Source: a virus | Reading direction: 5' to 3' (one strand) | IMG/VR virus record: IMGVR_UViG_3300012178_000006 | Span: 1-40,523 of that record | Length of the DNA stretch: 40,523 bases | In this document: one piece after another, positions 3-33,336 of the stretch | Position numbering within the stretch: the stretch's first letter is position 1 | Layout: every line of letters starts with the position of its first letter | Position numbers and translations under genes: made by a program | The notes under the pieces: generated by a model | Database searches by the model: none | Told to the model about the DNA's origin: nothing | The model's input: only the letters and a program-made list of their open reading frames with translations

Positions 3-2321
3 TCTCGTTTTGCACAAACTCAAAATAAACTATCCGACATTGTAAAGAATGTAGGTGCCAGAGGAATGATGCCTTATGTAGATGAGGAAGTTTCCAGCCT
101 AACCAATGACCTCGCATATCACAAAAAAGCCAGTAACATTAAAGCAGAAGCTCTTGAGATTCTTGATGAATCTTCAGCCCCTTCAGCTATCCGTAATTAT
201 GTATTACGTAATGGAATTGGAATCAACTACGACGAAGAAACTGGAAAAGCAGCAGGAGTTAAAGGAGGATTTTCACAAAACGAATTATCTGTAGCACGAA
301 ACTGGGAAGATTTCAGTGACTACTTGAATAAATTTTCAACCAAACGAGAGGGCAATAGCCAAGAAACAACGTTTGGTCAGAGTGCGTATAGTGAAACCAT
401 GCCTAACGGAGATGTAATTAACTATCGTGAACAACTCTCAGGTATTGGATTTGATGAAGCTCATATGCAGAATATGAGAGCATTGCTTTCAGACCCTAAA
501 ATGAGGGAACAACTTTCTTTATATGCTAATGCTATTATAAGTGCAGATAATCCTGATGTACGTGTAACTGAAGGTGGAAAGATTGAACGTGACTTTTATG
601 TCAGACAGACAGATAAGACCACAGGTAAATATTTAACCTCTGAAGGAGAACTTACAGAAGATGCAGGCAAAGCCAAGGTAGTTAAAGAACCCAAAGAGTT
701 TGCCTCTAAAGCAGCCATGGCTGCAAGTATGATAGCTGAGCCTTATTCTATGAGGGATTCTGGAATCAAAACAAAATATTTAACCACTAAATCTATCAAC
801 AGAGAAGGTGGAAGTGGTAGTAGCTTAGGAAATGATCCTTTATTTACCACTTCCCAATCTGTTAAAGTTCCTGAAATGGATTCTGCTAAATATTTGTCTG
901 GGCTATATGATCAAAAACAACAGATTGTAGACAGAGAAAAAGAAATTCTTGACTCTCTTTATGATATTGGTGGTGAAATTTTTGGAACCAGAGGACAACC
1001 TGTTAATGATTTTCAGGTAAATACAGTTAACGGTAAAATTCAAATCAGTTACAACGAAGATGAATCTTCAACCCAACGGACTACATTAAACGGTGTAGAC
1101 GAAATCACTGAATTTTTCACAAACAGACAAGAAGCTCTGCCTGAAAATTCCCCTGAGAGATTGCGTATAGGGCAAAACAAAAATTCTGTACTTCAAAAAG
1201 TAGGGGCTACACAAGAAATATTAAACCGAAGACGTGTTTTAAGTGAACAATTATATGATGCTCAAACATACACACATAACGAATTAGCTAAACGCGTCAA
1301 TGATGATGTGTTATCACTTGTACAGTTTAATCCTAATGGGGCCATTGGGATAAATGAGCAACAATTATTAAATAAAATCAACGAAAATCCTGATAAGTAC
1401 GAAAAAGGAAAACTTCCTGGAGGGGCATTTGTTGATAATAGTGACGATATGAGTGTAGGAGAAATGAGAGTTGTACAAGCTTATGATATCCTTGCTGGTA
1501 GTAAATCTTTAATGATAGGAGCAACAGACACTAAATATGATGTTTTTCAAAAACTTTCTTCCATTATAAGTAAAGAAGGAATAGACAACGGTCTTGTTAT
1601 TCGAAAAACAACCTACGGTTTTGAGTATTATAAAGCAGGTAGTATGATTAAAAATGTATTACCTCAGGCTAAAGACATCCAACAAAAAATGGTGGATGAT
1701 CTTAGAGATGCTGGTGAGTTTAAAGAATACATTGGAGTTAAGTTAATTCCTGGTCTCAAAGAGCATGAATATGTTATTGGAGCTATTGAGCAAAATAAAG
1801 GTTTAACAGATGAAGGCTCTTCCATGGACTTTGTGAAATCAAATGGAGAAGGGCTCACAGATGATGAACAGGAAGTTATAAGAAAGTCGAAATTCAGACC
1901 ACACTCTATTGTTCTTATGGATGGAGAACCAAAAATCATTGGTAGTTTTATCAATAAAACTGATGATATAGCTGTGGAAGGTCTTGAACGAGTTTTTGCA
2001 GGAGGAGAAGAAGCTAGTAGTATGGCTCAATACCTATACGGAGAAAAATATCAACTTGGTTTAGGTGTAGCGTCTATTAATAGTCTCCTCCCTGAACTTA
2101 TGTCAGGCAACTCTTCCATAGAGCTTACCCCAGCTATGCAACGCTCTATTGCAGGGGGCTATGACTCTGGGCAAACATTACGTATAGAACACAAAGTAAC
2201 CCGTAACAGATATGGAGAAAATTCTCGATTTGTTATTAGAGATAGTAACGGGAGGTTTGTGGAAGACGCTCCAGATGCGTATACTATACAAGGTATTTTG
2301 TTGTCCTTAGTTACTGAATAA
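3..2321 (+). CDS. Large virion-associated protein, 5'-truncated (probable cargo or polymerase-cluster protein)
   Basis: The reading frame is open from the left edge, through an ATG pair at 66, to a TAA at 2319-2321. The true start therefore lies outside the window and at least 772 residues are visible. The protein is hydrophilic, mixed-charge and mostly helical in character, with no signal peptide, clear membrane segment or catalytic motif that I recognise. Only 7 bases separate it from the giant polymerase gene downstream, so the two are surely co-transcribed. In crAss-like phages the virion RNA polymerase gene sits in a cluster of very large genes whose products are packaged in the capsid as cargo. 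Membership of that cluster is inferred from position and size only. A start at 66 is possible but unlikely, because the upstream codons are also open and protein-like. Confidence 0.75.
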   Translation, partial: SRFAQTQNKLSDIVKNVGARGMMPYVDEEVSSLTNDLAYHKKASNIKAEALEILDESSAPSAIRNYVLRNGIGINYDEETGKAAGVKGGFSQNELSVARNWEDFSDYLNKFSTKREGNSQETTFGQSAYSETMPNGDVINYREQLSGIGFDEAHMQNMRALLSDPKMREQLSLYANAIISADNPDVRVTEGGKIERDFYVRQTDKTTGKYLTSEGELTEDAGKAKVVKEPKEFASKAAMAASMIAEPYSMRDSGIKTKYLTTKSINREGGSGSSLGNDPLFTTSQSVKVPEMDSAKYLSGLYDQKQQIVDREKEILDSLYDIGGEIFGTRGQPVNDFQVNTVNGKIQISYNEDESSTQRTTLNGVDEITEFFTNRQEALPENSPERLRIGQNKNSVLQKVGATQEILNRRRVLSEQLYDAQTYTHNELAKRVNDDVLSLVQFNPNGAIGINEQQLLNKINENPDKYEKGKLPGGAFVDNSDDMSVGEMRVVQAYDILAGSKSLMIGATDTKYDVFQKLSSIISKEGIDNGLVIRKTTYGFEYYKAGSMIKNVLPQAKDIQQKMVDDLRDAGEFKEYIGVKLIPGLKEHEYVIGAIEQNKGLTDEGSSMDFVKSNGEGLTDDEQEVIRKSKFRPHSIVLMDGEPKIIGSFINKTDDIAVEGLERVFAGGEEASSMAQYLYGEKYQLGLGVASINSLLPELMSGNSSIELTPAMQRSIAGGYDSGQTLRIEHKVTRNRYGENSRFVIRDSNGRFVEDAPDAYTIQGILLSLVTE

Positions 2322-2328
2322 ATAAGAT

Positions 2329-5300
2329 ATGTCTGAACTCGATCCACTTACAAATTTACCCAAAAACGATCCAGAACCAACTCCTGCTAAAATAGGTACT
2401 CCAAAAGGCAAAAGTTCTTTGGATGAACTACGTCGTTCTCACAGAGCATTAGGCTCTCTCAGAGGAGGAGAAGGAAGAACAGTTCAAGGAACGTTTGGGG
2501 ATTATGCTCCAGGTGCTAACATTGTTAGTAATAAAAACTTCAACCAAATAAGAGCCCAAGGTCAATCAGGCTTAGAATTATTTGGCAAATCTCTTGCTCA
2601 GGCAGGGGGTACTGTTGTAGGTATGGGGCTTGAAGCTGTTGGTTTTCTTGGAGATATACCTCAAGCCATTACTCATATGGCTACAGGAAGTGAAATGGAA
2701 TTTGAGAGAAATTTTATTTCCCAAATGGGAAACGATATTGAAGAATGGACTCAAGACCAATTTCAGGTATATACAACAGATGAAGTAAATAATGGAGAAT
2801 TCGGGCGTTTCTTTGATGCTACCTATTGGGCTTCCCTCGCTCCAAGTATTGCAAGTACGTTATCTCTTATGCTTCCTGCAGGTGTTATTGGACGTGGAGC
2901 TGCTTATGCAGCAAGAGCTTTTAGAGCAGGTAAATTGGGAACACAAGTAGCTGAAACTGTAGGGGCTGCAGTTAGTTCTCGTCATATGGAAGGTATGTTA
3001 GAAGCTTATGAGTCTTACGAGCAGAATTATGACAAAGCTATTAATGAAGGACGTTCAGAACTTGAAGCTAATACAATTGCCTCCCAAGAAGCAGCAGGAA
3101 CTTATAGAAGAGGATATATTAACTTAGTTACGGATCTGCTTCAATGGGGAGCACTATCAAGAGGATTAAATTTCTCTAACCGAGCTATGAAATCAAGTAT
3201 CATCGATATCAGTGAGAAGTCAGGTGATGATCTTGTTAAAGCAGTAGGTAATGTTTTAAAACGAAATCCTTCTCTTACATACAAACAAGCTGTACAAAAA
3301 GCAGGATTTGATTGGAAAGACTGGGCAAGACAATCAGTCTTAGAGGGGTATGAGGAATTTAATCAGGAGTTTATTAAACGGATTGCTTCACATAATGCAG
3401 ACGTTTCTCTTGGATTAACAGATGGCAAAGCCATGGGCTTTGGAGAAGCTATAGGCTCAAGCTTAATGGCAGAACATGTACAAGATCCTAAAACATGGGA
3501 TGCAGCCCTTATGGGATTCATAGGTGGTGCTGTATTTCAAGGTGCTGGTGGAGCCTATGCTTCTTACCAAAACAGAGGTCTTGAAGCAGATATGGCTATG
3601 AATATGAAAGCAGAGCAAGAGAAGCTCGGTTATATTCAGGAGACTGTAAAAAACATCAATGCGGCGATTCAAACCGGAGATACACAAAAAGCAGAAATTG
3701 AACGACAAACTCTTGTGTTCTCTCTGGCTATTAATGGAATGAATACAAAAGATGTAACCTTTGGTGGTGCAGCTATTGAAGGACGTATGGGTAATACCAT
3801 AGAAATGTTCGAAGCCATTAAGAACATGACAGAAGAAGAAAGAGCTAACTTTGGATTAGGTGAAGAATCTGTAGAACTTGCAGATAAAGTCATAAAAGAC
3901 TTACAAAGTATTGGAGATAATCTGAATAAGTTCTTTAATGAAACCAATGTATCTAAAGAATTGGATGGTCCATTGGCTATTATGAAAGCCGAACAAACCT
4001 ATCGTATCGACAAAGCTATTGAGATGGAGTCTGATATTGATGGTAAAATATCAGAGATATTAAGTGATGGCACCACAGGAAAGATTTATGAGAGTCTGGA
4101 TACAAACCAGCAATCCCTCTTTCAGGAAATCATCGAACTCGAAAGTCTGCGAAAGACTAAAAAGTTCCTTGAAGAAGCTCCTGAAGATGCTTACGGTGCT
4201 CCTGAGTACCGTATTTCCATGTTTAAAAAAGGAAAAGCAAAAGCTGTAGCTCGTATTGATGAGCGTATCAAAGAGATTTCAGAAGCTATTAATGGGAAGG
4301 TAAAACGAGGCAAAGCCAGTAAACTGGTTAATGAAGCAGATGTTACCCCTATTGCTGATCAAGATGTCAGTGGTATTATGAGCAATGAAGATGTTCAGGG
4401 AGTTCAGGATATTCTGAAGAATATGGAAGACAATGAACTCCATAGACTGTATGAAGCAAGAGCTGAAAACATGACAGCTCTTGAAATGAGTAAGGTTAAT
4501 CTTCAGGAACTCAATATGAAAGGCGTACATGAGTCTATTCTTGACGCCATGGAAAAAACCTCTGAACAATTACAGCGTGAATACACAGAACGTGTGATTG
4601 AAAACAAATACAGAGGCGGTGAAATGCTTTTATTTGAACGTGAGGATAAAGAAGGAGAAACCAAAATTGACTTTGGGCGTATTTTTTATCCAGAGGAGGG
4701 AGTGGTTGCAATTTTACCTGTGGACCGTGAAGGAAAAACCATAGGAGACATTGCTCGTGTTGATAAACTAAAAAGATTAAAGCGTATAGCTAAAGCCTCT
4801 GCTGTAGATTATGATCAGATGATGTCTACAGAAGCTTTTGAAATTTTTCAAAAAGAATTCCGTAAAAATTTAAAGAACGGAAACTTCGAACAAGCCTTTG
4901 CGTTTATTTCGGATAGACTGGCTGAGAGCAATTACAGTGATAAAATGCAGGGATTGAAGCAAGAGCTTCTTGATGGTTTTGGTGAGTATATCAATGATAT
5001 TGATAGTGCTGGTGAACTAATCAGCATATATAATAGCTTCTTAGATTTCATGCCTCCTACACAGCTTGCAGAAGCGCGAGATATTTTACAAACCAGAGTA
5101 GAAGAACTCCAAGATCAGATAAACGATGAGATCGAATCCATTTCAAAGAGTATCACGAGAAAAGTCAAAGACTTTAGGAAACTTCAGGAAAAGGTTACGG
5201 AGGCTGAAGAGACAACAGAACAATTTAAACAAGATGCATCAGCAAGGATTAATGAGATCTTCGATGAGTTGGTTGAACAGGAAGCAAAAGAAGAGCTCAT

Positions 5301-8300
5301 TAATTTAGATCGTCGAACAAAGCCTGCTAAAGCTATTGAAGCTCTCGAACGAGAGATGAAAGAAGCAGAGAAAGACTTGAAGAACGTCAAGAAAACGATT
5401 GAACGTGAACAAGCTCAGATCCTGAAAGACATTAAAACACTTCAGAAGCTTGCAGACAAAGTAGTAGATGATAAAATGTCTGCAGATATGATTCTTGACA
5501 AGGAGATGAAAGAGATCTTCTCTGAGATGGAGTATATCAAATCACGTCTCTTGCTTAATAGTAACATGACCATTGAAACTCTTGATGGTCTATCTTCTGA
5601 TTATGAAGAACTTTCAGCATCTGTAGAGCGTGCTATTACAGCTATTGAAAAGTTCAGGGAATACACTCAGGAAATTAACGATGCTTCTGGTGTTATCCGA
5701 AAAGCTACACGAAAAGCATATAACGAACTGCTTGAAGAAGGCTTACTTAGCCAAACAAGTAGTGTATTTGGTGATGTAGGCAAACAAATATTTGAAGCCT
5801 TTCGTATCAAGTTTAACAAGAACCTTACATCAGAGTTACAAAACTTAAATCCTGAAAGCTATGGAAACCGTTTTGAAGGTGTACGTAGACTTATAAATGA
5901 GACGCGAATAACGAGTAATAATTTCCCAGGTGACGTTAATTATTGGGCTGCATTTGATATTGATTATCCTATATTTAGTGAGCTATTCCAGTCTTCTGAA
6001 ATGGCAGAACTACTTAATGCTCGTAATGACATTCAACGCTTTATAGATCTTCGTAGTAAATACGAAACCTATCAGGGAGTACTTAAACGATATCAGCATA
6101 TTCTTCGTAATAGAGCTGTAGCTGTTAAAGGACGTACGGTTAAAGGAAAGAAATCTACTAAAGAGGACACAGATACAGTAGAGGATTTTAAACCTCAGCG
6201 TACTATATTTACAGCATTTAAACGATTGGCAGGAAACTCAGGTACTAATGACAAGCCAAATCCTGATGCCTCTCAACGACGCTTATACCGTTATATCACA
6301 AATACCAGCTTCAAGGATAATCCTCATTTTGTTGAGCTTATGCTTGCTCCTGATAATTATGATGTTCCAGAGTATTATGAACGTGATGAAGTTATTTTAG
6401 CTGCTGTTACAGATGAGAATGGAAATTACCTGAAAGAAGATGGTACTACTACAGAAACATTTTCTCTGGAAGAAAACCTGTATAGTACAATTACAGAGCC
6501 TTCATATACAATTCCTGGTAGTAAATATGATCGTACGTTCAAACCTACACCTGACTATTTGAAGAACCATTTTGCAGGCAAAAACTACAAAGAACGTAAA
6601 GCCAATTACGAGAAAGAAAAAGAACGTATCAAACAGGCATATGCTAAGCGACGTAATAAGTGGTTAGCAGACCTTCGAGATGGTAAAGAGATCAAGTTGG
6701 GTATCAATGGTAAATCAATGGGAATTGATTACATAGACCTTGATAATCCTCAGCCTCTGGAGACCATGTTTGATGTAGAGCAAGTCGATCTTCGTGTACA
6801 GACGAGAGAAGTGTTCGAATACAAAGGCGACGTAGTTCATTTTAAGCGGGGACATGTGGTTATCCTTGATAATGAGCGTGGTAATGCTCACGAAGGACAT
6901 ACACGTAATCTCAATGCCAAAGAGAAGAACACTATTATCGCTGCTTTACGTCAGTATGCAAACCAGTCTGAGTTCAAAGGAAAGAAAGCAAATTATAATA
7001 AGGAACTCAGAGAAAGAGCAGGAAGACTACAGGATGCTGAAGGTAATGTATTATCTAAACCAGCCTTTGAAGTTGTCAAAGATTTGATTTATAGCTTTGA
7101 AGATAACGCCTACCTGGAATTGATGGGTAATGAAATGCGGGTTGGCGATCAGATTATTCCTATCTACGCTGAAAATGCTGATGGGGAGTTCATCAATAAA
7201 CTCAATCCTGAACTTGAAAATGCTTTAGTAGAAGTTCTTGATGGTACCCACATACAGGTACAAAGTGCTCCTCTTAAAAATTCTGATGAAACTTATTATC
7301 AAATTATTTATGAAGATGGGCAGTTTAAAGAAACAGAGTATCCAAGTTACAAACAGTACCTGTTAGACAATAAGGTTGTTCAAACGTATCTGCAGAAACC
7401 TCCTAAGCCTGAAAATGGTGAAGAAGGGTTCCGTAGCTATAATCAGTCATTGGTTATCAGTGATAAGGCTCTTGATTTAGGACAATCAGAATTTACACTT
7501 GATGATGCAGATTCCACACCACCTCCTACAGAAGAAGACTCCGGTCCTACAGAAGTAGATCTTGCTGTTGAAGGTGAGATTATCTCTGATATTTCTCAGA
7601 TTAATAACAAGGAAGTTATTGTTGAATACACAGGAGCTGCTATTCCTTTGCGTGTGAAGGTAACTAACATTGATGGAAACATTGATACAGAGATACTTTC
7701 CTATGACCTTGAGAATGCTACAGACCCTATTAAAAAGACCTTTGATGTCATTACCAAGAATGCTGAGAAACGCAATAAACTGTTTACCAGTTGGTTAAAT
7801 GATGGAGACAAGTTTAAGCTTATAGAAGATCTTCAAACATTTGAAATTCAAAAGGAAGAAACCACTGAGGTTCCTGAACCTGAAGAAAGTACTATAGCTG
7901 ATCCTGAAGTTGTAGATGCTTATCAAATTGAAACCCCTGGTAAAGAAGAGTCTGAGTATTATGATAAGATAGAAAAGAAATCTGATAAGAAAGACGATGC
8001 TACTTTTGACTGGTTCAAGGGAACAGCCTCAGGAAGAGTTCTTACTAACAGAGAGTTTGATATCATAACAGGTAATCTTACTTCTGCCACAGGAGTTCCT
8101 GTTGTAGTTAAGTCCAAAGTAGAAGGATTGGAGTTCTTACAAGAGCATTCAGATGAAAAATTTACTCTGGAAAACCTTCCTAAAGGCGCTTACCACAGAG
8201 GAATAGCCTATGTATTTACAGATGGTGAGATAAACTCAGAGACGGTATTTCATGAAGTAGGTCACGCTATTGTCGATCAAATCATGGACCAAAACCCTGA

Positions 8301-11300
8301 ACTTGCAAGAGAACTATACAACAGTATTGCTTCTACTGCTCAGGGAAGACGTATCATCGAACAAGTTGAAGCTGGCTATGGAGATGCGTTTCCTAATAAC
8401 GTTGCTGATCCTGCTGTTGTAGGAGAAATCATTACAACTGTACTTGGTAAGGAAGCTTCCAATCAGTATCAGGATAAAGGAACCCTTCAAAAGATTTGGG
8501 ATGCTATCAGAAACTTCTTCCAAGAGATTTTTGGAGAGTCTATACGAGTGAATGAACTAAATGCGACCACATCTATCAAAGATTTAGCTAAAATCTTGTC
8601 AGAAGGTCGTGATATTCAATTAACTCCTACGCTCATTAACCGTAATACCCTAAGACTACAGAAAGCAGATGACCTTGTTCTAAATGATTCTGTGAAATTT
8701 ACAAGTGATACTATGGACATGATGAACTATCTGTTCTTTGACAACTTGTTCAACGTGTTCCCTGATAAGTTGAACATCTTGTTTATATCAGATGACAGTA
8801 AAGAGTACTATAACGAAGTGTTAAAGGCTGTGAAAGCTGATGTACTTGTGCGAAGAAATACTGCCGTTAAACAGCTAAAAGAACGTAAAGCTAAAGGCAA
8901 GCCTATTTCTAAAGAGCATACAAACTTTATTGATAACTTAGACTTTGTTCGTAATAATTGGGATAAAGTTATTTCCCTGCATCAACGTAACCTAAAAAGA
9001 TATAACATAGAGGTTATTACTGAGGATACTATTGGAGATTCTGTAACCAAAGACAGTAACAAGTATTATCAAGACGCCTCAATCAATTTTTCAGCGAAAC
9101 AAAATGCCACGTCTGCTGTTCGGTTCTTAGTAGGAAGTCTGAGTTCTCATAAAGCGAACTCTTCATTTCCTGGAATTAAGAAGAATGTTGATTTTGGCAA
9201 GGTATTCAATGTACTGGCTAATCATATGGCAGGCACAACTACATTGGCTGAAAAGAGAGATGTCATCACACAGAAGATTCGTCATCAGGAAGGAATGACA
9301 GACCTTTTAAATCGTACCTTCATGAAATCTGGCTTTACTAAAGCAGATATTAACCTGATGCTACAGTTTAATGAGGCGTTCTCTAAGCACAATAACAGTT
9401 ACAAGATTGCTATCAGTGATGAAGGAGACAGTTTTAAACTGATTGATGCAACGATTAATACCAGTAAAAACAGACTTGTAAAAGAATGGTTCTCTAACAG
9501 TATTCGTCAAAACGTATATACGTTGAAGAACAACCAGCTGGTCTACAAACCTTCTTTGGTTAATAGTCTGAAACAAAAGGACCTCTTACTGACGTTCCTT
9601 AATAAAGACTATCAGGAACGTTTAACTAAGAGAGCTCCTAATGAGGAAGCTCAGTACAAATCATATTACAAACGTCTGCAATTCCTTGAGAAGTTAGGTA
9701 TCCACGTTACAGCTTATGATTCTCTTCCTTCTGAAGAGTTTAATAACTCTGTTGATCATATGTATAATCTGATCAAAAAAGGAAAAGGGATTAATGCTTT
9801 CCTTCGTGATGGAGATATGGAAGGAGATTTAAACGCTGTTGTTCAGCACGAAATTGACAATTCTGTCGATTGGGTAGAGAATCAGCATTTGAATCTTGAA
9901 AATGAAACCGTGTATAATGTTACACTGAATCATTATATCTCTTTGATTGAAGATAAGATCAATCGAGCAGCTAATTTGAACACGTTGTTGGATGAAAATC
10001 CTCATCTAAAATCTGATTACAGCAAACGGTCTATTCTACTGAACAGGAAAGGAACCTCTACACCTCGACATACCAAGCTATTTAATAAAGATGGAGAACG
10101 GACTGGTAAACTGACCATTAATATCACAGAAGGAATTAAAGGAAACCGTAAAGCCACACCTTTTGGCAAGTTAGACCATTCTGATAAAATACGTGTACAC
10201 ATAAACTCTGTGCTTAGTGGACAATATCCATTATTCCGAGCAGGAGATAAGAAGCTTGAACGTTTCATAGAACTTGGAGAGATATTCTCTAAGAAAGAGA
10301 TACGTGAAAACACGTACGTTAAGCAGTTTACAGAATACTTGATGGACGAGTTGGACTACATTCGTAAAAACAGAGACCTTTTAAGCCAGTATGCTGGAGC
10401 TCAGAATCTTGTAGAGAATCCTATTGAGAACTCCATTATGCCTAAGATGGTAAGTGGTAATAAGAAGCTGAAGACAGCCATGGAGAAATACATTGATGGT
10501 AACCTCTCAGCTATGACTCAAACTATGTTCTCTACAGCAGAACATCAGATTAAGAAGCATTTTGAAGACATGATTCCAGAGACTATTGACTATCTGGAAG
10601 AGTTTATGGTGGTTGAGAAGCAAGGAGACTCCTATAAAAACAATGGGTTACTTGGACTCGTTGATAACGACATGGTAAAATATAATCAAGAACAACTTGA
10701 GAATATTATAAAGACTGTTGTAATCAGTGAAGCAGCTGCTAACATTGAGCAAACCAAAGTATTTACTGGTCACCCTGCTTTTTATAAGAAGTCTGATAAC
10801 TTCTTCCACAGAATGAGTGGTGCTCTTGGTACTAAAAAGATATCTTCTGTAGGTAATGGTGTAAACAACCTGTTAAACCAATTCTTCCCTTCTAATCAAC
10901 GGCTGTATGCATATACAGATAGTAAAGGAAGACTACAAACTACAGACAAATACGAGAAAGGCTATCGTCCTATTATTCGTACAGCTGTATTCTCTGATGT
11001 CATTACTCGTTCTACGGAACTTGAAGAAATCAAGAAGACGCTGAAAAATGCAGATGCTTACGAGACTATGGAAGAAGCAGATGCTATAGGTATGGTATCT
11101 CTGGAAACCTATCGAGATATGAAACTTCGAGGTGCAGAATGGACAGAAGCCCTTGAACGACTATATCAGTGGGAGAAACGACCAGAAGGAGCTACTTCTA
11201 TACAATTTGAGAACTGGACCACAGGAGAAACAGAAAAAGTAACTGCCAGAGACCTTGTTAATACAGATGGTAAGCGTACCACGTTTAACATGCTCAAGCC

Positions 11301-14300
11301 TCAGTATTTTGGACCTCTTGCAGAGGAAGAATTTATTCCAGGGATGTATAAGACAGCTTTATTACCTGTTCTTCGTGAGTACAATACGCCAGCTTTCACT
11401 ACGCTCAAAGAATACATGAGCAAAAGTAAAACTGGAATCGTTACTTTTGAGTCTGCTAATAAGGTAGGAACCAAAAATCCTGGACAAGAGCTCTATAAAG
11501 ATGGAGTTCCTGACTTTTCTGAAGTAACTACCCAAGACAGTTACTTTGAGTATTGGGGATTACAACTACAGACAGGAAACTCTGTTAAAGACCGCGTTAT
11601 CCTTGGTAGCCAGTTCATGAAGCAAATACTTTCAGGAATTTATGAGAATGGAGAAGTACGCTCAGATAAAGCAGCTGAGCTTGGTGATCTTGCCAGTGAA
11701 ATGACACGTACACATTCAGATCTTATTCAACTGGGTATCGATGAATTGATTGAGGAACTTGGTCTTACCATGGTTGAAGGTCGCTATACCATAGATAGTA
11801 TGGAAAGCCTCATCGATTTTCTTGTAGATGAAGCTGAGCAACGTGATGCTAACAACAACCTTATTCAGGGGTTAAGCAACCTCAAGAAACTCATGGAAGC
11901 TGGATTAGGTTTAGACGTATTGCCTAACCGAGACAAGGTTGAAAACATCCTTGCAAGTATCGCAGACAGTCGTGTTATTAGTCAGAAGGTTCATGGTGGA
12001 GCTAAAGTACAGGCATCAAGCACGTTCTTTGAGAAAAATCCTCGTGTGAAAGTTGGAGACAAATACCTGTCTAATGAGCTACAATTCTACCCTGAAGAGG
12101 GAGAGGGTAAAGGATACATGGAAGTGTATATGCCACATTACTTCAAAGAACTATTTGGAGACAACCCTGAAGACGTAGCCAATGAACTTCTTGAAGCTGT
12201 TGGATTCCGTATTCCTACTTCTGGACTTAACGTTATTGAGCGTATTAAAATCAAAGGGTTCTTACCACAATCTGCAGGAGAAACAATTGTACTGCCGACT
12301 GAAATTGTAGCTAAAGCAGGTAGTGACTTTGACGTTGATAAGCTGAATGTTCTCCTTCCTAATTACCGTATGGTAAAAGGAAAGCCTGAGTACATTGAGT
12401 TCTTTGAAAACGGTGATCAAGCATTAAAGGTTATTGATAAGATGTACAAAGAGCTTGAAACAGATGATGTTGCTGTTATACGAAAACAACTGAAGAAGCG
12501 AGGCTATGGTAAATTAGCTGATATGCTTATAGATAAAACAGTGAAAACTGGAAAACGCATTAAGAATGCCTCTAAACAATCACTGAATACTAAGCAGGCA
12601 TATCAAAACCGCCTCATCAGCATTTCCAGCCAGATACTTAGCCACAAAACAAACCGTGAAGCACTGCTGACTCCGATTGGTATTGATGTTCTTGATAATC
12701 TGAAACAGGAAATCGATGATATCAGGAAAGAAACTTACGAGAGTGACTATGCAACCATGACCACCAACTTCAAATACCTCACCCGTATTACACAGCGTAA
12801 TATCGAGAGTATTGCAGGTACTGGACTTTCTGCACTTCATGTAAGTGATCATGTACACTCTACACGTTACAACTACTACATGCTGAAAAACTTTGATCTG
12901 GAGATTCCTCACAATCAAACAGAGTCTGGAAGAGTAAGTCTTGCAGGAGCTAAGGCTTATAAGACAAGTGAAAAAGTTGAAGACATACACAAGAACGAAG
13001 AGATTGGAGATACTCTTAATCAGATTACTAACATGTTTATTGATGGGGTAAAGAACCCTATCAGTTATTCACTGAACCTGAATCTTACAACAGCTAAAAC
13101 CGCTTTATACCTCATACGTGCAGGAACTCCTGTTAGAAAAGTAATGTACTTGCTTAATCAACCTATTGTACGAGAGTATACGAAGCTGAAATCTATTCAG
13201 GAGTCTATTGCCAATGAGCCTAAGTGGACAGATAAAAAGTTTGAGCAATTACTGACAGACCAAAAGATTGATAAGATCATTCGCGATAAATACGGAAAAG
13301 GGTTTTCTCCTGTCGATTACTCTGATACTGAGATGAAAGATCAGTTATTCTCTCCTACCAACGGAGAGCAACGTTCTTATCTGCAAGAATATCTGAAAGC
13401 AGAAACAGGAGCTACTGAATTGAATAAATACATTCAGTCTACACGTATTGATACGCAGGCAATGGGTAAAAATACATCCCAATTAGAGTTAATGCTCGGA
13501 GACCTTGAGTTTATTAACGAGAAATCCTCGGTAGTTCGAAACTCTGATCGTGTAGTGGCTAACACTATGGATAAAGATACTCCAGGATTCTTACAGCCTC
13601 ATTATACTGCTTTGAAAGAGTTTAAGAAGCTATTTGTACCTTTCTTTTCTCATTATTCTAACCCAGACAGCAATCATGTATACGAAAACATGGTGTCCTT
13701 TGTATCTTCTCTTGATGGACTTGTGGAAGACAAAGTAAAATTGCTGGATAAGGTAAAGGCTGACTTGTTAACCTATAAGTTAATGACATCTCCTGTTATG
13801 ATAAATGACTCTCAATATGGTCCTATAGGGGGATCTGTTGATAAGCTGATGGTAGATGAGAATTCAGTGCCTGAACGTGTAATGAAGAAACGAGAAACGT
13901 CTGACAACCTCTTCCTTGAATATCTGCTCCCCATTCTGTCTCAGGAAAATATTGAAGGCAAGGGCTATAACAGCTTGAAGCTTGTAGACCAGCGTTTAGA
14001 TATTGTTGAGCAGAACAACCTTATTAATGAGTTTAGAAATCTGTTTGTCACTGACCCCCAGTTAGCTGCAGATATCACACGTTTTGTTATCCTGCAAAGT
14101 GGATTACAACTGAGTCCTATCACATTTACTAAGTTTATTCCTCAAGAATACTACTCAGAAATGTTGGGTTCCGTTGCAAATGCGCCTCTTAATAAACAAC
14201 AATTTATTCAACGGTTTATTCAGAATAACACCAATGACAACCTTCTGTTGCCTATTCAGTGGAAAAGAGGTAAACCTGACAAAGCTAAGTTATGGAAACG

Positions 14301-15033
14301 ACTTAAACGTACAGGAGCTACTAAAGAAGAACTTTCTCAAGGGTTCCCTAAGTACAAAACGAAGCCAGAAATTGTCATTCCTGCTAAAGGATTAGAGATT
14401 GGAGAGCTTAAAGTATATCCAAAGCGTAACTCAGACTATCTTATTAATCCTGCAGGATTCAGAGACTTCAAGAATGATAGAAGTCTGCAAGCTTATACTT
14501 TAGTATCAGGCACCACACCAATTATTCCTGAAGCTTCTCAAACCGTAGAAACTATAAAACGGTATGATAATAAAATGGTTCAAGCTAATCCTGACAAGAT
14601 TTATATCTTTGGTGATAACTTGATGAATGTAGGAAAAGGAGGTCAAGCTATCATTAGAGATAATGAAAATGCATTTGGTATTCCTACTAAAAAGAAACCA
14701 GCAAATTCTGAGAGTAGTTTCTTTACAGACACTGAGCTTAAAGAGAATATTTTAGCTATAGATAAAGCCATTGAAGATATTCAAAAAGATGGAAGACCTA
14801 TTGTATTTCCTTCTGATGGATTAGGAACAGGATTAGCAAATCTTGAAGAACGGGCTCCTGAAACATTTGCGTATCTTAACAATCGATTAGATGAAGTATT
14901 TGGTTTTGATAATATCACAGGAGTTGTAACTTCTGGTAAAGCAGAAAACAAAGCGCTTAAGAAATTAAAAGAAAATCCAGACGTTGACCCCAAAGAGGCA
15001 ACGAAGAAAACTACGAAATGTCGAGGTAACTAA
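2329..15033 (+). CDS. Giant crAss-like virion RNA polymerase polyprotein with metalloprotease and macro-like domains
   Basis: This 4234-residue protein carries the catalytic signature GSDFDVDKLN, with metal-binding Asp3333, Asp3335 and Asp3337. It is the DxDxD loop of the double-psi beta-barrel RNA polymerases found in crAss-like phage virions, which are related to eukaryotic RNAi polymerases. A second conserved-looking patch, SQKVHGGAKVQ, is at 3218-3228. Upstream of the core are hydrophobic, glycine- and alanine-rich stretches near residues 90-108, 165-196 and 392-413, which could contact a membrane during ejection. A charged coiled-coil region spans about 920-1050. A zincin motif HEVGH lies at 1975-1979, with Glu2033 in VVGEII as a plausible third zinc ligand. 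The C-terminus (about 4085-4205) holds a macro-like module with FGDN and GLGTGLANL. The stop overlaps the next start as TAATG. Polymerase identity is firm; protease and macro functions are predictions. Crassviral polymerases are often about 2000-2500 residues, so this one looks fused or expanded. Confidence 0.9.
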   Translation: MSELDPLTNLPKNDPEPTPAKIGTPKGKSSLDELRRSHRALGSLRGGEGRTVQGTFGDYAPGANIVSNKNFNQIRAQGQSGLELFGKSLAQAGGTVVGMGLEAVGFLGDIPQAITHMATGSEMEFERNFISQMGNDIEEWTQDQFQVYTTDEVNNGEFGRFFDATYWASLAPSIASTLSLMLPAGVIGRGAAYAARAFRAGKLGTQVAETVGAAVSSRHMEGMLEAYESYEQNYDKAINEGRSELEANTIASQEAAGTYRRGYINLVTDLLQWGALSRGLNFSNRAMKSSIIDISEKSGDDLVKAVGNVLKRNPSLTYKQAVQKAGFDWKDWARQSVLEGYEEFNQEFIKRIASHNADVSLGLTDGKAMGFGEAIGSSLMAEHVQDPKTWDAALMGFIGGAVFQGAGGAYASYQNRGLEADMAMNMKAEQEKLGYIQETVKNINAAIQTGDTQKAEIERQTLVFSLAINGMNTKDVTFGGAAIEGRMGNTIEMFEAIKNMTEEERANFGLGEESVELADKVIKDLQSIGDNLNKFFNETNVSKELDGPLAIMKAEQTYRIDKAIEMESDIDGKISEILSDGTTGKIYESLDTNQQSLFQEIIELESLRKTKKFLEEAPEDAYGAPEYRISMFKKGKAKAVARIDERIKEISEAINGKVKRGKASKLVNEADVTPIADQDVSGIMSNEDVQGVQDILKNMEDNELHRLYEARAENMTALEMSKVNLQELNMKGVHESILDAMEKTSEQLQREYTERVIENKYRGGEMLLFEREDKEGETKIDFGRIFYPEEGVVAILPVDREGKTIGDIARVDKLKRLKRIAKASAVDYDQMMSTEAFEIFQKEFRKNLKNGNFEQAFAFISDRLAESNYSDKMQGLKQELLDGFGEYINDIDSAGELISIYNSFLDFMPPTQLAEARDILQTRVEELQDQINDEIESISKSITRKVKDFRKLQEKVTEAEETTEQFKQDASARINEIFDELVEQEAKEELINLDRRTKPAKAIEALEREMKEAEKDLKNVKKTIEREQAQILKDIKTLQKLADKVVDDKMSADMILDKEMKEIFSEMEYIKSRLLLNSNMTIETLDGLSSDYEELSASVERAITAIEKFREYTQEINDASGVIRKATRKAYNELLEEGLLSQTSSVFGDVGKQIFEAFRIKFNKNLTSELQNLNPESYGNRFEGVRRLINETRITSNNFPGDVNYWAAFDIDYPIFSELFQSSEMAELLNARNDIQRFIDLRSKYETYQGVLKRYQHILRNRAVAVKGRTVKGKKSTKEDTDTVEDFKPQRTIFTAFKRLAGNSGTNDKPNPDASQRRLYRYITNTSFKDNPHFVELMLAPDNYDVPEYYERDEVILAAVTDENGNYLKEDGTTTETFSLEENLYSTITEPSYTIPGSKYDRTFKPTPDYLKNHFAGKNYKERKANYEKEKERIKQAYAKRRNKWLADLRDGKEIKLGINGKSMGIDYIDLDNPQPLETMFDVEQVDLRVQTREVFEYKGDVVHFKRGHVVILDNERGNAHEGHTRNLNAKEKNTIIAALRQYANQSEFKGKKANYNKELRERAGRLQDAEGNVLSKPAFEVVKDLIYSFEDNAYLELMGNEMRVGDQIIPIYAENADGEFINKLNPELENALVEVLDGTHIQVQSAPLKNSDETYYQIIYEDGQFKETEYPSYKQYLLDNKVVQTYLQKPPKPENGEEGFRSYNQSLVISDKALDLGQSEFTLDDADSTPPPTEEDSGPTEVDLAVEGEIISDISQINNKEVIVEYTGAAIPLRVKVTNIDGNIDTEILSYDLENATDPIKKTFDVITKNAEKRNKLFTSWLNDGDKFKLIEDLQTFEIQKEETTEVPEPEESTIADPEVVDAYQIETPGKEESEYYDKIEKKSDKKDDATFDWFKGTASGRVLTNREFDIITGNLTSATGVPVVVKSKVEGLEFLQEHSDEKFTLENLPKGAYHRGIAYVFTDGEINSETVFHEVGHAIVDQIMDQNPELARELYNSIASTAQGRRIIEQVEAGYGDAFPNNVADPAVVGEIITTVLGKEASNQYQDKGTLQKIWDAIRNFFQEIFGESIRVNELNATTSIKDLAKILSEGRDIQLTPTLINRNTLRLQKADDLVLNDSVKFTSDTMDMMNYLFFDNLFNVFPDKLNILFISDDSKEYYNEVLKAVKADVLVRRNTAVKQLKERKAKGKPISKEHTNFIDNLDFVRNNWDKVISLHQRNLKRYNIEVITEDTIGDSVTKDSNKYYQDASINFSAKQNATSAVRFLVGSLSSHKANSSFPGIKKNVDFGKVFNVLANHMAGTTTLAEKRDVITQKIRHQEGMTDLLNRTFMKSGFTKADINLMLQFNEAFSKHNNSYKIAISDEGDSFKLIDATINTSKNRLVKEWFSNSIRQNVYTLKNNQLVYKPSLVNSLKQKDLLLTFLNKDYQERLTKRAPNEEAQYKSYYKRLQFLEKLGIHVTAYDSLPSEEFNNSVDHMYNLIKKGKGINAFLRDGDMEGDLNAVVQHEIDNSVDWVENQHLNLENETVYNVTLNHYISLIEDKINRAANLNTLLDENPHLKSDYSKRSILLNRKGTSTPRHTKLFNKDGERTGKLTINITEGIKGNRKATPFGKLDHSDKIRVHINSVLSGQYPLFRAGDKKLERFIELGEIFSKKEIRENTYVKQFTEYLMDELDYIRKNRDLLSQYAGAQNLVENPIENSIMPKMVSGNKKLKTAMEKYIDGNLSAMTQTMFSTAEHQIKKHFEDMIPETIDYLEEFMVVEKQGDSYKNNGLLGLVDNDMVKYNQEQLENIIKTVVISEAAANIEQTKVFTGHPAFYKKSDNFFHRMSGALGTKKISSVGNGVNNLLNQFFPSNQRLYAYTDSKGRLQTTDKYEKGYRPIIRTAVFSDVITRSTELEEIKKTLKNADAYETMEEADAIGMVSLETYRDMKLRGAEWTEALERLYQWEKRPEGATSIQFENWTTGETEKVTARDLVNTDGKRTTFNMLKPQYFGPLAEEEFIPGMYKTALLPVLREYNTPAFTTLKEYMSKSKTGIVTFESANKVGTKNPGQELYKDGVPDFSEVTTQDSYFEYWGLQLQTGNSVKDRVILGSQFMKQILSGIYENGEVRSDKAAELGDLASEMTRTHSDLIQLGIDELIEELGLTMVEGRYTIDSMESLIDFLVDEAEQRDANNNLIQGLSNLKKLMEAGLGLDVLPNRDKVENILASIADSRVISQKVHGGAKVQASSTFFEKNPRVKVGDKYLSNELQFYPEEGEGKGYMEVYMPHYFKELFGDNPEDVANELLEAVGFRIPTSGLNVIERIKIKGFLPQSAGETIVLPTEIVAKAGSDFDVDKLNVLLPNYRMVKGKPEYIEFFENGDQALKVIDKMYKELETDDVAVIRKQLKKRGYGKLADMLIDKTVKTGKRIKNASKQSLNTKQAYQNRLISISSQILSHKTNREALLTPIGIDVLDNLKQEIDDIRKETYESDYATMTTNFKYLTRITQRNIESIAGTGLSALHVSDHVHSTRYNYYMLKNFDLEIPHNQTESGRVSLAGAKAYKTSEKVEDIHKNEEIGDTLNQITNMFIDGVKNPISYSLNLNLTTAKTALYLIRAGTPVRKVMYLLNQPIVREYTKLKSIQESIANEPKWTDKKFEQLLTDQKIDKIIRDKYGKGFSPVDYSDTEMKDQLFSPTNGEQRSYLQEYLKAETGATELNKYIQSTRIDTQAMGKNTSQLELMLGDLEFINEKSSVVRNSDRVVANTMDKDTPGFLQPHYTALKEFKKLFVPFFSHYSNPDSNHVYENMVSFVSSLDGLVEDKVKLLDKVKADLLTYKLMTSPVMINDSQYGPIGGSVDKLMVDENSVPERVMKKRETSDNLFLEYLLPILSQENIEGKGYNSLKLVDQRLDIVEQNNLINEFRNLFVTDPQLAADITRFVILQSGLQLSPITFTKFIPQEYYSEMLGSVANAPLNKQQFIQRFIQNNTNDNLLLPIQWKRGKPDKAKLWKRLKRTGATKEELSQGFPKYKTKPEIVIPAKGLEIGELKVYPKRNSDYLINPAGFRDFKNDRSLQAYTLVSGTTPIIPEASQTVETIKRYDNKMVQANPDKIYIFGDNLMNVGKGGQAIIRDNENAFGIPTKKKPANSESSFFTDTELKENILAIDKAIEDIQKDGRPIVFPSDGLGTGLANLEERAPETFAYLNNRLDEVFGFDNITGVVTSGKAENKALKKLKENPDVDPKEATKKTTKCRGN

Positions 15034-18000
15034 TGAGTTTAGTCTGTCCAAATTACAACAGTGAATCATACATCCAGCTGGAAAGAGCATTGGGTCCGTT
15101 TAAAACTCATAACATTTTCTACCGTATGGATAATGAATTACCACCTATTGAAGAGGTGCCTGAAATTATTGCGTATGAACTGTCTGCTGAACGTACAGAA
15201 AGTGAGTTAAACAAAGCTCCTATCTACGAGGATATTGTAAACAAACTGGATAACCCTGATGTAGAAAAACTACCTAATCAGGAAGGATATCTGAATAAGA
15301 AGACAGGCAAAAGGGTTAGCCATCGTGTCAGTGAGCTTATTGAACGTCACTTGAAAGCTATTGGAAAGAACTATAAAGGAGAAGACAGACCATTTTTTGC
15401 AAGAAAAGGTACTGTAATACATAGTTATCTGGAACACATTGGTAAAGCTATTGCGAACAAAGAGTCTATAAGTCAATCAGATATTCGCGATGAAGTTGCT
15501 AAACTCTTAGAGCTTGATGAATTCAGTGAGTATGGACCAGAGTTTGTAAACATGCACGTTAATCAATTTAAACAGTTGACATCAGGTATGAGAGCGCTTA
15601 TCAGCGAAATACGCGAAATACAGAAAGAGATAAACCCAGATGTTGAGCCTAAGTTTTACTTTGAGCTTCCTATTATGGACAGTCTTTCTGACTTAGCAGG
15701 AACCATTGATCTTGCAGTCCTCTTTTCTGATGGAACTGCCGCTGTATACGATTACAAGTCATTCTCTCGTCCAGGAGAAGAAGCCCCAGGAGCTTTAAAG
15801 CAGAACAAATGGAGTATGCAGTTAGCTCGTTACAAAAACATGTTGAAAGAGAACTATGGTATCAAGAGTTTTCGACGTGCTCGTATTATTCCTATTCGTG
15901 CAACGTATTCTGAGTACTCAGGAAACGAATGGATTAAAGAAATTGAAGATGGCTTCAAAACTATAGCCATGCAAGACGCAAATAATCGTCAGGATACGCA
16001 GTATCTCAACGCCATTCCTGTCGAAGAGCTAACAGGCGACCCTGTAGTCGATAGGTTGATTAAGAAGCTCTTAGAAGAGAAATCTCAGACTCAATCTTTA
16101 TTGAATCGAGCAAAAGCTGGAGAAAAGACCAGACTAATCAATAAGATCTCTCGAATCAATAACGCTTTAAAGAATGTACAGCTTAACAGAGATGTTACAG
16201 GAATGGTTAACGATGTAATAGAACTGTTTAATCAATATAAAGATCGATTAAATCTTCCTGCTACTGATGAACGCTTTATGGATTACAGCGAAGTTACAGA
16301 TGCTATTGGAGAAATGGAGATATATGCTAATCTGGCTTCTGATTTCAGTAACCAGTTAGATAATATGAAGAAAGAAGACCGTAAACGTCTTGGACAAGCA
16401 GTATCTAAAGCAGAAAGTACGGCAAGACTTCTTCAAAATAGAATGTTGGATGAATTAGAAGAGCGTATTGGACATCATCATCTGAAAGCAGGTGAGATTC
16501 CTTCTGCCTTTGCACGCCAGTTTCAGGGAATTCAAGACTGGAATATGCCTGTGTTTCAACGACTCAACGAACTTATTCGTGAAGCAGATGAAATTACACG
16601 ACGTAAAACCCTTGATGAATTTGAAACCATAGAGAAGATTGATAAAGAGTTTTCTGATTGGGCAGCTGCTAATGGGTATGGTAAGATGGAGAAATTTGAT
16701 CTTCTATACGATGAAAATACAGGAAGACTTGTCAGTGAATACACGAAAGAGTTCTGGAAAAAGCGTGACGATATACAAGAACGAGCTCGTAATAAAGGCA
16801 AGGTTACAAAGGAGGAAAAAGACTGGCTGAAAACCTACTTTACATTGGATGAACAACGTTATGAATCTCGCAAGGAGAAAGTATTCAAACAGATTGAACA
16901 CGATCTTGCTGTTACCCCCATGACTAAAGAAGAAGCAAAATCCGCTAAAAAACGTTGGTTAGACAACAATTCTATTAAAAGCGATGGAAGCAACCTGTAC
17001 TCTTCCTACTACTTAAAGCCTCGTGAAGATAAAGCATCAGATTATCATTCAGAGAAGTGGAAATTCATTGAGTCTAACGAACCTGTTAAGAACTACTATG
17101 ATATGTATATCAAGTATAACCTACAGTGGACAGAAACCTTTGGCTCTCAAACCATAGGGAGACGCTTTGTAGCTAATGTTCGTAAAGGGCTTTGGGATAA
17201 CATAGTAGAATTTGGTCCGGGAGGTCTTGGAGATTTAACCAGTATCTACCAAAATTCACTTCAGATTCATCAGGAAGATGAGCTTCTTGGTGCTGTAGAT
17301 TCCAATGGTAATAGTCTGGCAACGATCCCGCTTCTGTATACAGACCCTGTGTATAACAAACCTTCTAATAAAGAACAACAACGTATAGAAGAAGAGTTAG
17401 CAAAGAAATACACACCAGATACTCCAGAGTTTGAGGAGGCTGTTCAAAAAGCTCTCTATGAAAGAGGGAAAGAGCTTGGACTGAAAACCAAGAGCAAAGA
17501 CCTTACTAAATCCCTTATGGCTATGGTGTATTCAGCAAATACTCACCTCTCCAAGTCTGCTATTGAGGGAGAAGTCAAAGCCCTGAGAACCCTTATCGAA
17601 AAAGAACGGGTAGAAAGTATCCAGTTAGATAATTTTGAAGAGAACATTATCCGAGAGGTTGAAGGAGATCTCGTAAAAAAAATCGGACTCGATCCCCAAC
17701 TGAAAGAGTACTTTGACAGCTTCGTTGATATGCTTTTGTACGGCAAACAACTTAAAACTGATACGAAACTGGGTGATTATTCCCTGGCAAAAGTCATGAA
17801 TAGTATGATGCAGTATATGTCTATACGCTCATTAGGGTTTAACCACACTATTCAGATAGCTGATTATATTCAGGGTAAAACAGCCATGGGTATGATAGCA
17901 AGAGAAGGTAGATACTTTACAAAACAATCATGGGGAGAAACACTTACAAGTTGGTCTCGACGTGATGATCAGTTTAAAAAAGTAGCTGAATACTGGCAAC

Positions 18001-19151
18001 CTGAATCACGAAGTATTCCTTCTGAAAAAATAGAATTAGCAGGAGCTACTACTTTTTCTCGTCGTTTTAGAAGCCGTACCTTATTTATAGGGTATGTCTG
18101 GTCTGATGATAATATTTCAAAAGGGGTTCTCTCTGCTATGGCAAAGCATTACGTAGTGGACTCTGACAACAAAATAAAGAATCCTAAATTTGACAAGATT
18201 CTTGATAAAGATGCTCCTTCTGTCTATGACTCTGTACAAGAAAAAGATGGACAGTTATACATTGAAGGATTAGATGTCAAAGAGTTCGCTAAGTTCAGAG
18301 ACAAAGTTCAAAAGATGTTATATCAGATACGTGGTACACAAAATGAACGTCAGAAAGGGTTAATTTCACGTACAGTTCTTGGACAATCTTTAATGCATTT
18401 CAGAAGCTGGATTCCTGGCTTAGCTCAAGCACGATTTGGTAAACTACGCTATGATTCTACGATGGAAACCATTGAGATAGGACGATTTAATGCTGCTATG
18501 GGAGAGGTATTAGGAAACGGAATGCTTCCTGCAGTTAAGGAGGTGCTTAAAATTATTTCAGAAGTAGTGGCTATGGGCTTGTATAAAAAGACGCCCAACA
18601 AAGCAGCTATCCAGCGTAAATTTGATAAGTTTATACAGCAACACCCCCAATACCGAGATATTTGGGATGTGGAAGATGGACAGGTACCTGATGCATTCAT
18701 ACAACTATATAGAGATAAGCTTCATGGATTAGTTGCAGAACTAAGAATCTATCTGGCATTCTTTGTTACTGTTCAGCTTCTTGGAGGGCTTGAATGGGAT
18801 GATGAAGAAGAAGGAAACCTCTTTACATGGAATGCACACCAACTCGCAAGACGTGCTCTGCTTGAATCTTCTTTCTTCTGGAATCCAAGTTCCGTAGATG
18901 AGATCATCAAATCTCCTATTGCTTTATGGGGACAGGCAACAGAAGTTAAAAAAATGATAGCGAATGGGATTATTGAAACATCCTATGTAGTAAAAGGTGA
19001 GAGAGACCCACGAGATAAAACTCCGTTTGGGTATTACGGATTGAAAAACACACCTGTTATTAATCAGGTGTTAGATATATTTGACCATTTCAACCGTTAT
19101 AACCCTCCTAAGAGTGTGGTTGAAAAAGTAATGGAAGACCCTGATAATTAA
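15033..19151 (+). CDS. Giant virion-cluster protein with RecB-like PD-(D/E)XK nuclease domain
   Basis: This 1372-residue protein is translationally coupled to the polymerase gene by a TAATG overlap. Residues about 110-280 match the RecB/AddB branch of PD-(D/E)XK nucleases. GTVIHSYLEH gives His130, AGTIDLA gives Asp226, VYDYKS gives Asp240 and Lys242, and MQLARYK gives Gln263 and Tyr267. All catalytic positions are present, so DNA cleavage activity is plausible. The remaining ~1100 residues are helical and mixed-charge; I recognise no further domain. One hydrophobic stretch (YLAFFVTVQLLGGL) lies near residue 1245. Its place directly after the virion polymerase suggests it is packaged too, perhaps acting on host or entering DNA; that role is inference. 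The gene ends with TAA at 19149-19151, sharing TTAA with the convergent gene. Confidence 0.78.
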   Translation: MSLVCPNYNSESYIQLERALGPFKTHNIFYRMDNELPPIEEVPEIIAYELSAERTESELNKAPIYEDIVNKLDNPDVEKLPNQEGYLNKKTGKRVSHRVSELIERHLKAIGKNYKGEDRPFFARKGTVIHSYLEHIGKAIANKESISQSDIRDEVAKLLELDEFSEYGPEFVNMHVNQFKQLTSGMRALISEIREIQKEINPDVEPKFYFELPIMDSLSDLAGTIDLAVLFSDGTAAVYDYKSFSRPGEEAPGALKQNKWSMQLARYKNMLKENYGIKSFRRARIIPIRATYSEYSGNEWIKEIEDGFKTIAMQDANNRQDTQYLNAIPVEELTGDPVVDRLIKKLLEEKSQTQSLLNRAKAGEKTRLINKISRINNALKNVQLNRDVTGMVNDVIELFNQYKDRLNLPATDERFMDYSEVTDAIGEMEIYANLASDFSNQLDNMKKEDRKRLGQAVSKAESTARLLQNRMLDELEERIGHHHLKAGEIPSAFARQFQGIQDWNMPVFQRLNELIREADEITRRKTLDEFETIEKIDKEFSDWAAANGYGKMEKFDLLYDENTGRLVSEYTKEFWKKRDDIQERARNKGKVTKEEKDWLKTYFTLDEQRYESRKEKVFKQIEHDLAVTPMTKEEAKSAKKRWLDNNSIKSDGSNLYSSYYLKPREDKASDYHSEKWKFIESNEPVKNYYDMYIKYNLQWTETFGSQTIGRRFVANVRKGLWDNIVEFGPGGLGDLTSIYQNSLQIHQEDELLGAVDSNGNSLATIPLLYTDPVYNKPSNKEQQRIEEELAKKYTPDTPEFEEAVQKALYERGKELGLKTKSKDLTKSLMAMVYSANTHLSKSAIEGEVKALRTLIEKERVESIQLDNFEENIIREVEGDLVKKIGLDPQLKEYFDSFVDMLLYGKQLKTDTKLGDYSLAKVMNSMMQYMSIRSLGFNHTIQIADYIQGKTAMGMIAREGRYFTKQSWGETLTSWSRRDDQFKKVAEYWQPESRSIPSEKIELAGATTFSRRFRSRTLFIGYVWSDDNISKGVLSAMAKHYVVDSDNKIKNPKFDKILDKDAPSVYDSVQEKDGQLYIEGLDVKEFAKFRDKVQKMLYQIRGTQNERQKGLISRTVLGQSLMHFRSWIPGLAQARFGKLRYDSTMETIEIGRFNAAMGEVLGNGMLPAVKEVLKIISEVVAMGLYKKTPNKAAIQRKFDKFIQQHPQYRDIWDVEDGQVPDAFIQLYRDKLHGLVAELRIYLAFFVTVQLLGGLEWDDEEEGNLFTWNAHQLARRALLESSFFWNPSSVDEIIKSPIALWGQATEVKKMIANGIIETSYVVKGERDPRDKTPFGYYGLKNTPVINQVLDIFDHFNRYNPPKSVVEKVMEDPDN

Positions 19152-32607: not shown

Positions 32608-33336
32608 TTAATCGATAAAGATTTTATCCCAATGTGTAATAATGTTACCTTTGTCATCTTGTTCTGAAATAACAAAGTCTTCGCCATCTAAATGACTACA
32701 GCGACTTCCTGCCGTTGTATCATCGTCAGCGAAAAAAGTGATACGTCTTTTTGTATTATCATCTGGATCGACGTATACATATCCAATAGCATCTACATCT
32801 GCAGCTGTAATAGATTTTAACTTTCCAGTAAGGTCAATATCCTTAACAGATACCTGATCGCCTTCTTTCTCAATCACACTATCTTTTACGTGACCGATGA
32901 AAATGATATGTTCAGATGTTCGTTTAAAGACATCCATCCATTGCTTAAATTCTGTCCGCAATAGCTGGTAACCCTTACCATAATCAAGTTCAAGTACAGT
33001 TTGACCAGTAAAGTTTCTGCCCATAGCATTCTGCTTATATTTAGCAGTAGCTGAGCGTTCACACCAATCTTCCAGCTTAGAAATCGTATCAAGTGTTGAA
33101 TACTTATACGGTTGTCCAGCCTTATAGATGGCTTTACAAGTTTCATTGAACTCAGTTAAATTATTAGCTTGCATTTTCAATGCTTCCACAAAGTTACTTC
33201 CCTGCTCAATATCAACTATCAGATTATCTTCTAATTGAGAAAGGATTGTTGTTTTCCCAAACTTGGGAGGACCATAAATTAACAGGCTTCGTGGGTTCCT
33301 GTTATTAGGCTTAATAGGTGTCTTAGGTAGTTCCAT
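32608..33336 (-). CDS. Sak4-like AAA ATPase (single-strand annealing/recombinase family)
   Basis: A 242-residue AAA_24-type ATPase. Walker A is IYGPPKFGKTT (Lys28), LDTISKLEDW is the Walker B-like strand, and HIIFIGHVKD follows as the sensor strand. Short RecA-like phage ATPases with this layout include Sak4, which anneals or pairs single-stranded DNA with help from a phage SSB. The ATG at 33336 was chosen; a TTG 21 bases earlier is possible but weaker. It overlaps the DnaB-like gene by 14 bases. It could also be a helicase-associated ATPase, but the family and neighbours favour recombination. Confidence 0.7.
   Translation of the reverse strand: MELPKTPIKPNNRNPRSLLIYGPPKFGKTTILSQLEDNLIVDIEQGSNFVEALKMQANNLTEFNETCKAIYKAGQPYKYSTLDTISKLEDWCERSATAKYKQNAMGRNFTGQTVLELDYGKGYQLLRTEFKQWMDVFKRTSEHIIFIGHVKDSVIEKEGDQVSVKDIDLTGKLKSITAADVDAIGYVYVDPDDNTKRRITFFADDDTTAGSRCSHLDGEDFVISEQDDKGNIITHWDKIFID

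Follow-up and report, generated by a model that had tools for sequence, protein, structure and literature searches.

A predicted crAss-like giant virion RNA polymerase with N-terminal, zincin-like and DUF7831 modules in a single 4,234-residue reading frame

The window analysed here is the whole of a 40.5-kb virus record (IMG/VR IMGVR_UViG_3300012178_000006; 40,523 nucleotides), and it contains an ORF on the plus strand with 4,234 codons for 4,234 amino acids, an ATG start and zero internal stops under translation table 11, whose product has a calculated mass of 479.8 kDa (Table 1). The single uninterrupted frame described in the first-pass annotation, made from the sequence alone, is therefore borne out. 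An independent contig (L006; IMG/VR 3300012270_000003, 49.3 kb) is identical to the window at 99.1% of nucleotides over 20.4 kb (176 mismatches) and keeps the frame intact at 4,235 aa with a single 1-aa indel, and a Bacteroidales MAG contig (L087) encodes a collinear homologue of 4,387 aa with ~48% identity over the core. Because the frame is intact in the former and has a collinear homologue in the latter, we regard it as real. The same annotation had raised the worry that close relatives with separate genes might betray an assembly artefact. Two genes are indeed present in some relatives, but the intact second copy, the distant collinear homologue and 29 other complete fused ORFs leave a negligible probability that separate genes were joined here by assembly or by chance; we consider this explanation ruled out, and the outcome favours a real fusion. 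Codons that differ between L006 and the window change the amino acid in 34 cases and are silent in 6 within the first 1,000 residues (window 2329-5328), against 25 and 21, respectively, in the remainder of the ORF, so that the N-terminus seems to be relaxed or under diversifying selection, as judged from small counts in two strains.

Table 1. Features of the giant ORF and of its neighbours in the window.
Feature	Residues	Position	Strand	Remarks
Upstream large ORF		3..2321	+	772+ aa, cut by window edge (842 aa in L006); crAss cargo protein position, by synteny
Giant virion RNA polymerase ORF (N-terminal part, zincin-like domain, two-barrel RNAP, DUF7831)		2329..15033	+	Intact in independent contig L006
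Conserved N-terminal domain with hydrophobic segments	68-411	2530..3561	+	Homologous to N-terminus of Carjivirus gp45 and phi14:2 gp67; invariant Q, E, E..EE columns
Probable coiled coil, heptad-periodic, Lys/Glu-rich, proline-free	~1030-1141	5416..5751	+	Periodicity >99.9% shuffle level
Zincin-like domain	1935-2135	8131..8733	+	H, E and H kept in all 28 rows of an alignment selected for the HExxH motif; PDB zinc-protease profile matches only marginal
HEVGH	1975-1979	8251-8265	+	Sole HExxH in the giant protein
RNA polymerase region, two-barrel phi14:2 gp66 type	2780-4059	10666..14505	+	6vr4 sequence match and model
Catalytic loop GSDFDVDK	Asp 3333/3335/3337	12319..12342	+	Three Asp invariant, 71 rows
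C-terminal DUF7831 domain	4077-4185	14557..14883	+	PF25176, E 5e-36; model pLDDT 92
Next gene of transcription block, PD-(D/E)XK domain		15033..19151	+	1,372 aa; cr108_1 gp52 homologue; position of phi14:2 gp65 'RNA polymerase associated protein'

The ORF occupies the place that is typical of a Crassvirales vRNAP, namely, in the transcription block after the tail tubular and cargo genes and beside a large partner, and the order tail tubular, ~1,450-aa gene, cargo-sized genes, vRNAP and PD-(D/E)XK partner is syntenic with that in Crassvirales. The ORF immediately upstream gave no sequence match, its assignment to the cargo position being by synteny. A replication block with a family A DNA polymerase, an SF2 helicase and a DnaB-like helicase lies on the opposite strand (36844-38712, 35139-36509 and 33323-34513, all minus), which is the usual layout of crAss-like phages, viruses of Bacteroidota-type bacteria.

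The first-pass annotation placed the active-site aspartates at 3333, 3335 and 3337, and counting along the sequence agrees exactly, with GSDFDVD beginning at residue 3331. Its assignment to the crAss-like virion polymerases also stands, as phi14:2 gp66 (PDB 6vr4) matches residues 2780-4059 with E 3e-30 in a sequence search of the PDB. The same search revealed no T7-like polymerase sequence of the kind found in N4-type vRNAPs, as neither N4 nor T7 RNAP chains were among the matches at E <= 1. For residues 2780-3640, an alignment of 71 rows gave an AlphaFold model (pLDDT 87.5, pTM 0.89) whose sole PDB match below 1e-3 is 6vr4 (E 2.3e-34, TM 0.72, for an alignment over the core as a whole and not barrel by barrel), which supports an RNAP fold for the region around residues 3200-3400, where the first-pass annotation called for a double-psi beta-barrel. 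D3333, D3335 and D3337 are invariant in 71/71 rows, as is an upstream RIP motif. The protein has the single-chain two-barrel RNAP core with a metal-binding DxDxD that is seen in Crassvirales vRNAPs. Single-sequence domain scans of the giant protein detect DUF7831 alone, the RNAP and the zincin being detectable only with relatives.

Hydrophobic segments, a coiled coil and a protease motif had been reported ahead of the active site, and candidates for all three could be located. The hydrophobic stretches (~89-114, 164-195 and 392-410) are moderate, with a best 19-residue Kyte-Doolittle mean of 1.51, which is weak for transmembrane helices. Heptad periodicity exceeds the 99.9% shuffle level at ~1030-1140 and ~491-580, as would be expected of a coiled coil, which is probable for the former stretch. 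The protease motif is HEVGH at residue 1975, the HExxH signature of the zincin-like metallopeptidases of polyvalent proteins. The domain at ~68-411 matches no Pfam or PDB family, and profile searches of PDB and Pfam with the N-terminal and zincin regions returned nothing firm; this domain also begins Carjivirus gp45, phi14:2 gp67 and many metagenomic loci. Altogether, the N-terminal ~2,700 residues correspond to a separate upstream gene in phi14:2 (gp67) and in Carjivirus (gp45, 'zincin'), the latter labelled 'RNAP associated protein fused to zincin protease'.

Comparison with known systems shows which parts of this architecture are shared. phi14:2 gp66 resembles the polymerase in sequence, fold and GSDFDxDK loop, and gp67 has the same type of N-terminal domain in the same genome place; however, phi14:2 uses two genes (1,797 and 2,180 aa) without HExxH and without DUF7831, and identity is only ~23%. 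Carjivirus communis (crAssphage) likewise pairs a giant catalytic protein (gp44, 4,070 aa) with a zincin-bearing one (gp45) that matches the present protein at the N-terminus, but its chain is split before the RNAP and gp44 owes its length to a C-terminal extension. Coliphage N4 vRNAP gp50 (~3,500 aa) is also one giant chain with a membrane-type N-terminus, a polymerase and an HExxH domain, and it is packaged and ejected (PMC12633501, PMC5512222), as the present chain would be; its polymerase, however, has the T7-like single-subunit fold, its HExxH follows the polymerase, and it has no sequence match to the giant protein. In Thermus phage P23-45, gp96 (5,002 aa) joins a two-barrel virion RNAP to an ejection-type giant protein (PMC10770324), but there the RNAP is N-terminal and fused to the tail tape measure of a long-tailed phage. 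The nearest named relative is cr108_1 (Pipoluvirus rarus, NC_055878), in which gp54 and gp53 contain the N-terminal domain, HExxH and RNAP in one reading unit next to the partner gene gp52; it differs in a shorter N-terminal half, the lack of DUF7831 and an intron in the catalytic motif. This group I intron (Rfam E 1.6e-20; L004:20348-20666, i.e., NC_055878 ~58374-58692) lies between the codons of GSD and FDxD, and it alone makes the vRNAP gene look split; the record annotates it as two hypothetical proteins. The enzyme thus looks broken but probably is not.

The first-pass annotation was right that an RNAP is joined to other modules, including a zincin-like domain, but not that the protein is an extreme form in length or module order. 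The loci that were fetched contain complete RNAP ORFs of two main classes: 30 distinct ORFs (3,526-5,721 aa) are fused, 17 of them longer than 4,234 aa, and the polymerase-only class measures ~2,090-3,150 aa from stop to stop; a few split-type RNAPs are giant too (4,212-4,744 aa) via a C-terminal extension, as in Carjivirus gp44. According to a review, crAss RNAPs reach up to ~6,000 aa (PMC10136315). Extreme length is therefore ruled out, and cr108_1 shares the module order; the 4,234-aa ORF is a typical, mid-sized member of a common kind of giant fusion. About 53 loci were scored as fused, that is, with the N-terminal domain (or the zincin) in the same ORF as the RNAP. In phi14:2, Carjivirus, Rudgehvirus and several metagenomic loci, an upstream ORF of its own encodes the N-terminal domain. 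The fused or split state changes ~5 times on a quick tree of 101 RNAP cores, from which direction was not inferred. Hence the giant-RNAP architecture is common across many crAss-like lineages and comes about through switching between a single fused gene and a pair of genes; the separate genes of the phages studied so far can accordingly be regarded as components of a single delivery machine.

Gene integrity, RNAP fold, active-site residues, module homologies and synteny are direct observations, and with them in hand the giant chain is very probably a crAss-like ejection-type head joined to a protease-like domain and a virion RNAP, which would be packed into the virion, enter the host as a thread with its N-terminus leading and transcribe early genes. 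In phi14:2 the vRNAP is carried in the virion and transcribes early genes (PMC7886860, PMC10136315), and in crAss001 the RNAP proteins travel as cargo in the capsid and have to unfold in part on their way through the tail (PMC10172136). By analogy, we infer the ejection order, membrane contact, refolding and early transcription as follows. As its phi14:2 and crAss001 homologues suggest, the giant RNAP would be a late product that enters the capsid together with the adjacent cargo proteins and the 1,372-aa partner; on leaving the virion, the chain would be partly unfolded and led by its N-terminus. The N-terminal domain, which is moderately hydrophobic, would then act at or in an envelope channel, a membrane role suggested by its position and by the N4 and crAss001 analogies (PMC12633501, PMC10172136). 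The two-barrel RNAP would refold inside and transcribe early genes as the DNA enters, independently of the host RNAP, as has been shown for phi14:2. The zincin-like domain may trim the chain at some stage or be purely structural, and DUF7831 might be an optional co-delivered accessory, perhaps one that binds a ligand or counters the host. With the modules fused, delivery would be 1:1 and the ejection part would always enter before the enzyme. Ejection and processing functions of the chain's own, as the first-pass annotation proposed, would be plausible; signalling, which it also proposed, lacks a supporting family, as no signalling domain was found in the giant protein in Pfam, PHROGs or NCBIfam.

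The zincin-like domain is fairly fixed in position: in most fused ORFs the HExxH sits ~1,300-1,400 aa before DxDxD (1,660 in L087). A candidate third zinc-ligand Glu (E in 'EExLAE') is conserved in at least 90% of the aligned rows; the giant protein has Pro2028 in this column and E2033 five residues further on, and since the expected third ligand is displaced, protease activity is doubtful here. In one clade of fused giant vRNAPs, HEAFE consistently replaces HExxH, so that a metal ligand is changed throughout (L012, L013, L014, L017-L020, L022, L023, L025, L028, L029, L034, L043, L044, L046 and L050). The canonical motif can thus be lost, and canonical proteolysis is apparently dispensable; conservation of HExxH elsewhere argues for some zincin activity.

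Proteolytic processing of the giant chain is possible. In the fullest form of this idea, the chain would be a self-processing precursor that corresponds to the separate genes seen in other phages, and the zincin, acting either ahead of packaging or once inside the host, would cut it to yield a gp67-like part, a gp66-like polymerase and perhaps DUF7831 as a free domain. The invariance of HExxH among the aligned fused relatives and the performance of the same job by separate genes in phi14:2 and Carjivirus speak for such cleavage, and there are precedents, in that autoprocessing by the MPTase of polyvalent proteins has been proposed by Iyer et al. and DdrB of P1 undergoes cleavage prior to packaging (PMC5512222). 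However, N4 vRNAP is packaged unprocessed in spite of its HExxH domain (PMC5512222), phi14:2 gp66 and gp67 are without HExxH, a fused crAss RNAP clade carries HEAFE instead, and the third ligand is displaced in the giant protein, so we find self-processing rather doubtful. It is a little easier to believe, though still short of probable, that the domain is a structural or packaging element, a pseudo-enzyme with no working protease here. The HEAFE clade and the displaced Glu fit this reading, and in N4 the MPTase region is needed for encapsidation though the vRNAP is packaged uncut (PMC5512222), and the HExxH-bearing C-terminal region autoinhibits the polymerase (PMC12633501). Strict retention of H, E and H in the other aligned fused relatives would be unusual for a dead enzyme, an objection weakened by the selection of the alignment for HExxH.

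The remaining module, DUF7831 at the C-terminus, was absent from the first-pass annotation and scores 123.5 bits against a curated cut-off of 27. When viral contigs were searched with the domain, DUF7831 matches shared an ORF with a crAss-type RNAP in dozens of cases, usually directly behind it, and the remaining ones lay in other giant proteins or were free proteins of ~130 aa. The nearest relative (L087) is without the domain, whose presence changes ~16 times on the RNAP tree, a count that mixes gains, losses and undetected divergence and includes some rows chosen by domain search. A search of the viral structure library BFVD with the DUF7831 model retrieved DUF7831 proteins of Tupanvirus, Yasminevirus and Hyperionvirus, those of Caulobacter and Rhizobium phages, and giant proteins of the gut crAss phages cr272_1, cr130_1 and cr131_1. 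Jumbo phages and giant viruses have the domain too, and its occurrence in tailed phages and amoebal giant viruses suggests a wide horizontal spread. A macro (ADP-ribose-binding) identity, suspected from the glycine-rich sequence, was not supported, as the model had no PDB match below E 0.4, and viral macro or ADP-ribose hydrolase proteins were reached only at E >= 0.33 and TM <= 0.46. The one link, a weak one, is with A1S_2505-type phage proteins (NF049995, best member E 0.0014), and no paper on DUF7831 turned up in a literature search. Its most likely use would be that of an accessory co-delivered with the polymerase. The more specific idea of an interchangeable effector or sensor, which would reach the host cytoplasm with the first transcripts on the injected crAss-like polymerase and which, as a free protein of jumbo phages and of amoebal giant viruses, would counter a conserved cellular response, nucleotide-based or other, strikes us as unlikely. 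As an uncharacterised domain repeatedly joined to packaged polymerases and common to giant viruses, DUF7831 is a testable candidate for a co-injected accessory. In Caulobacter phage phiCbK (NC_019405), a free DUF7831 gene (108898-109347) follows rIIA and rIIB; the window encodes a GHKL-ATPase protein that might be rIIA-like (25626-27830, minus strand). In another viral contig (L106, IMGVR_UViG_3300037191_001756), ~1,100 residues with DUF7831 interrupt the RNAP core before the catalytic motif.
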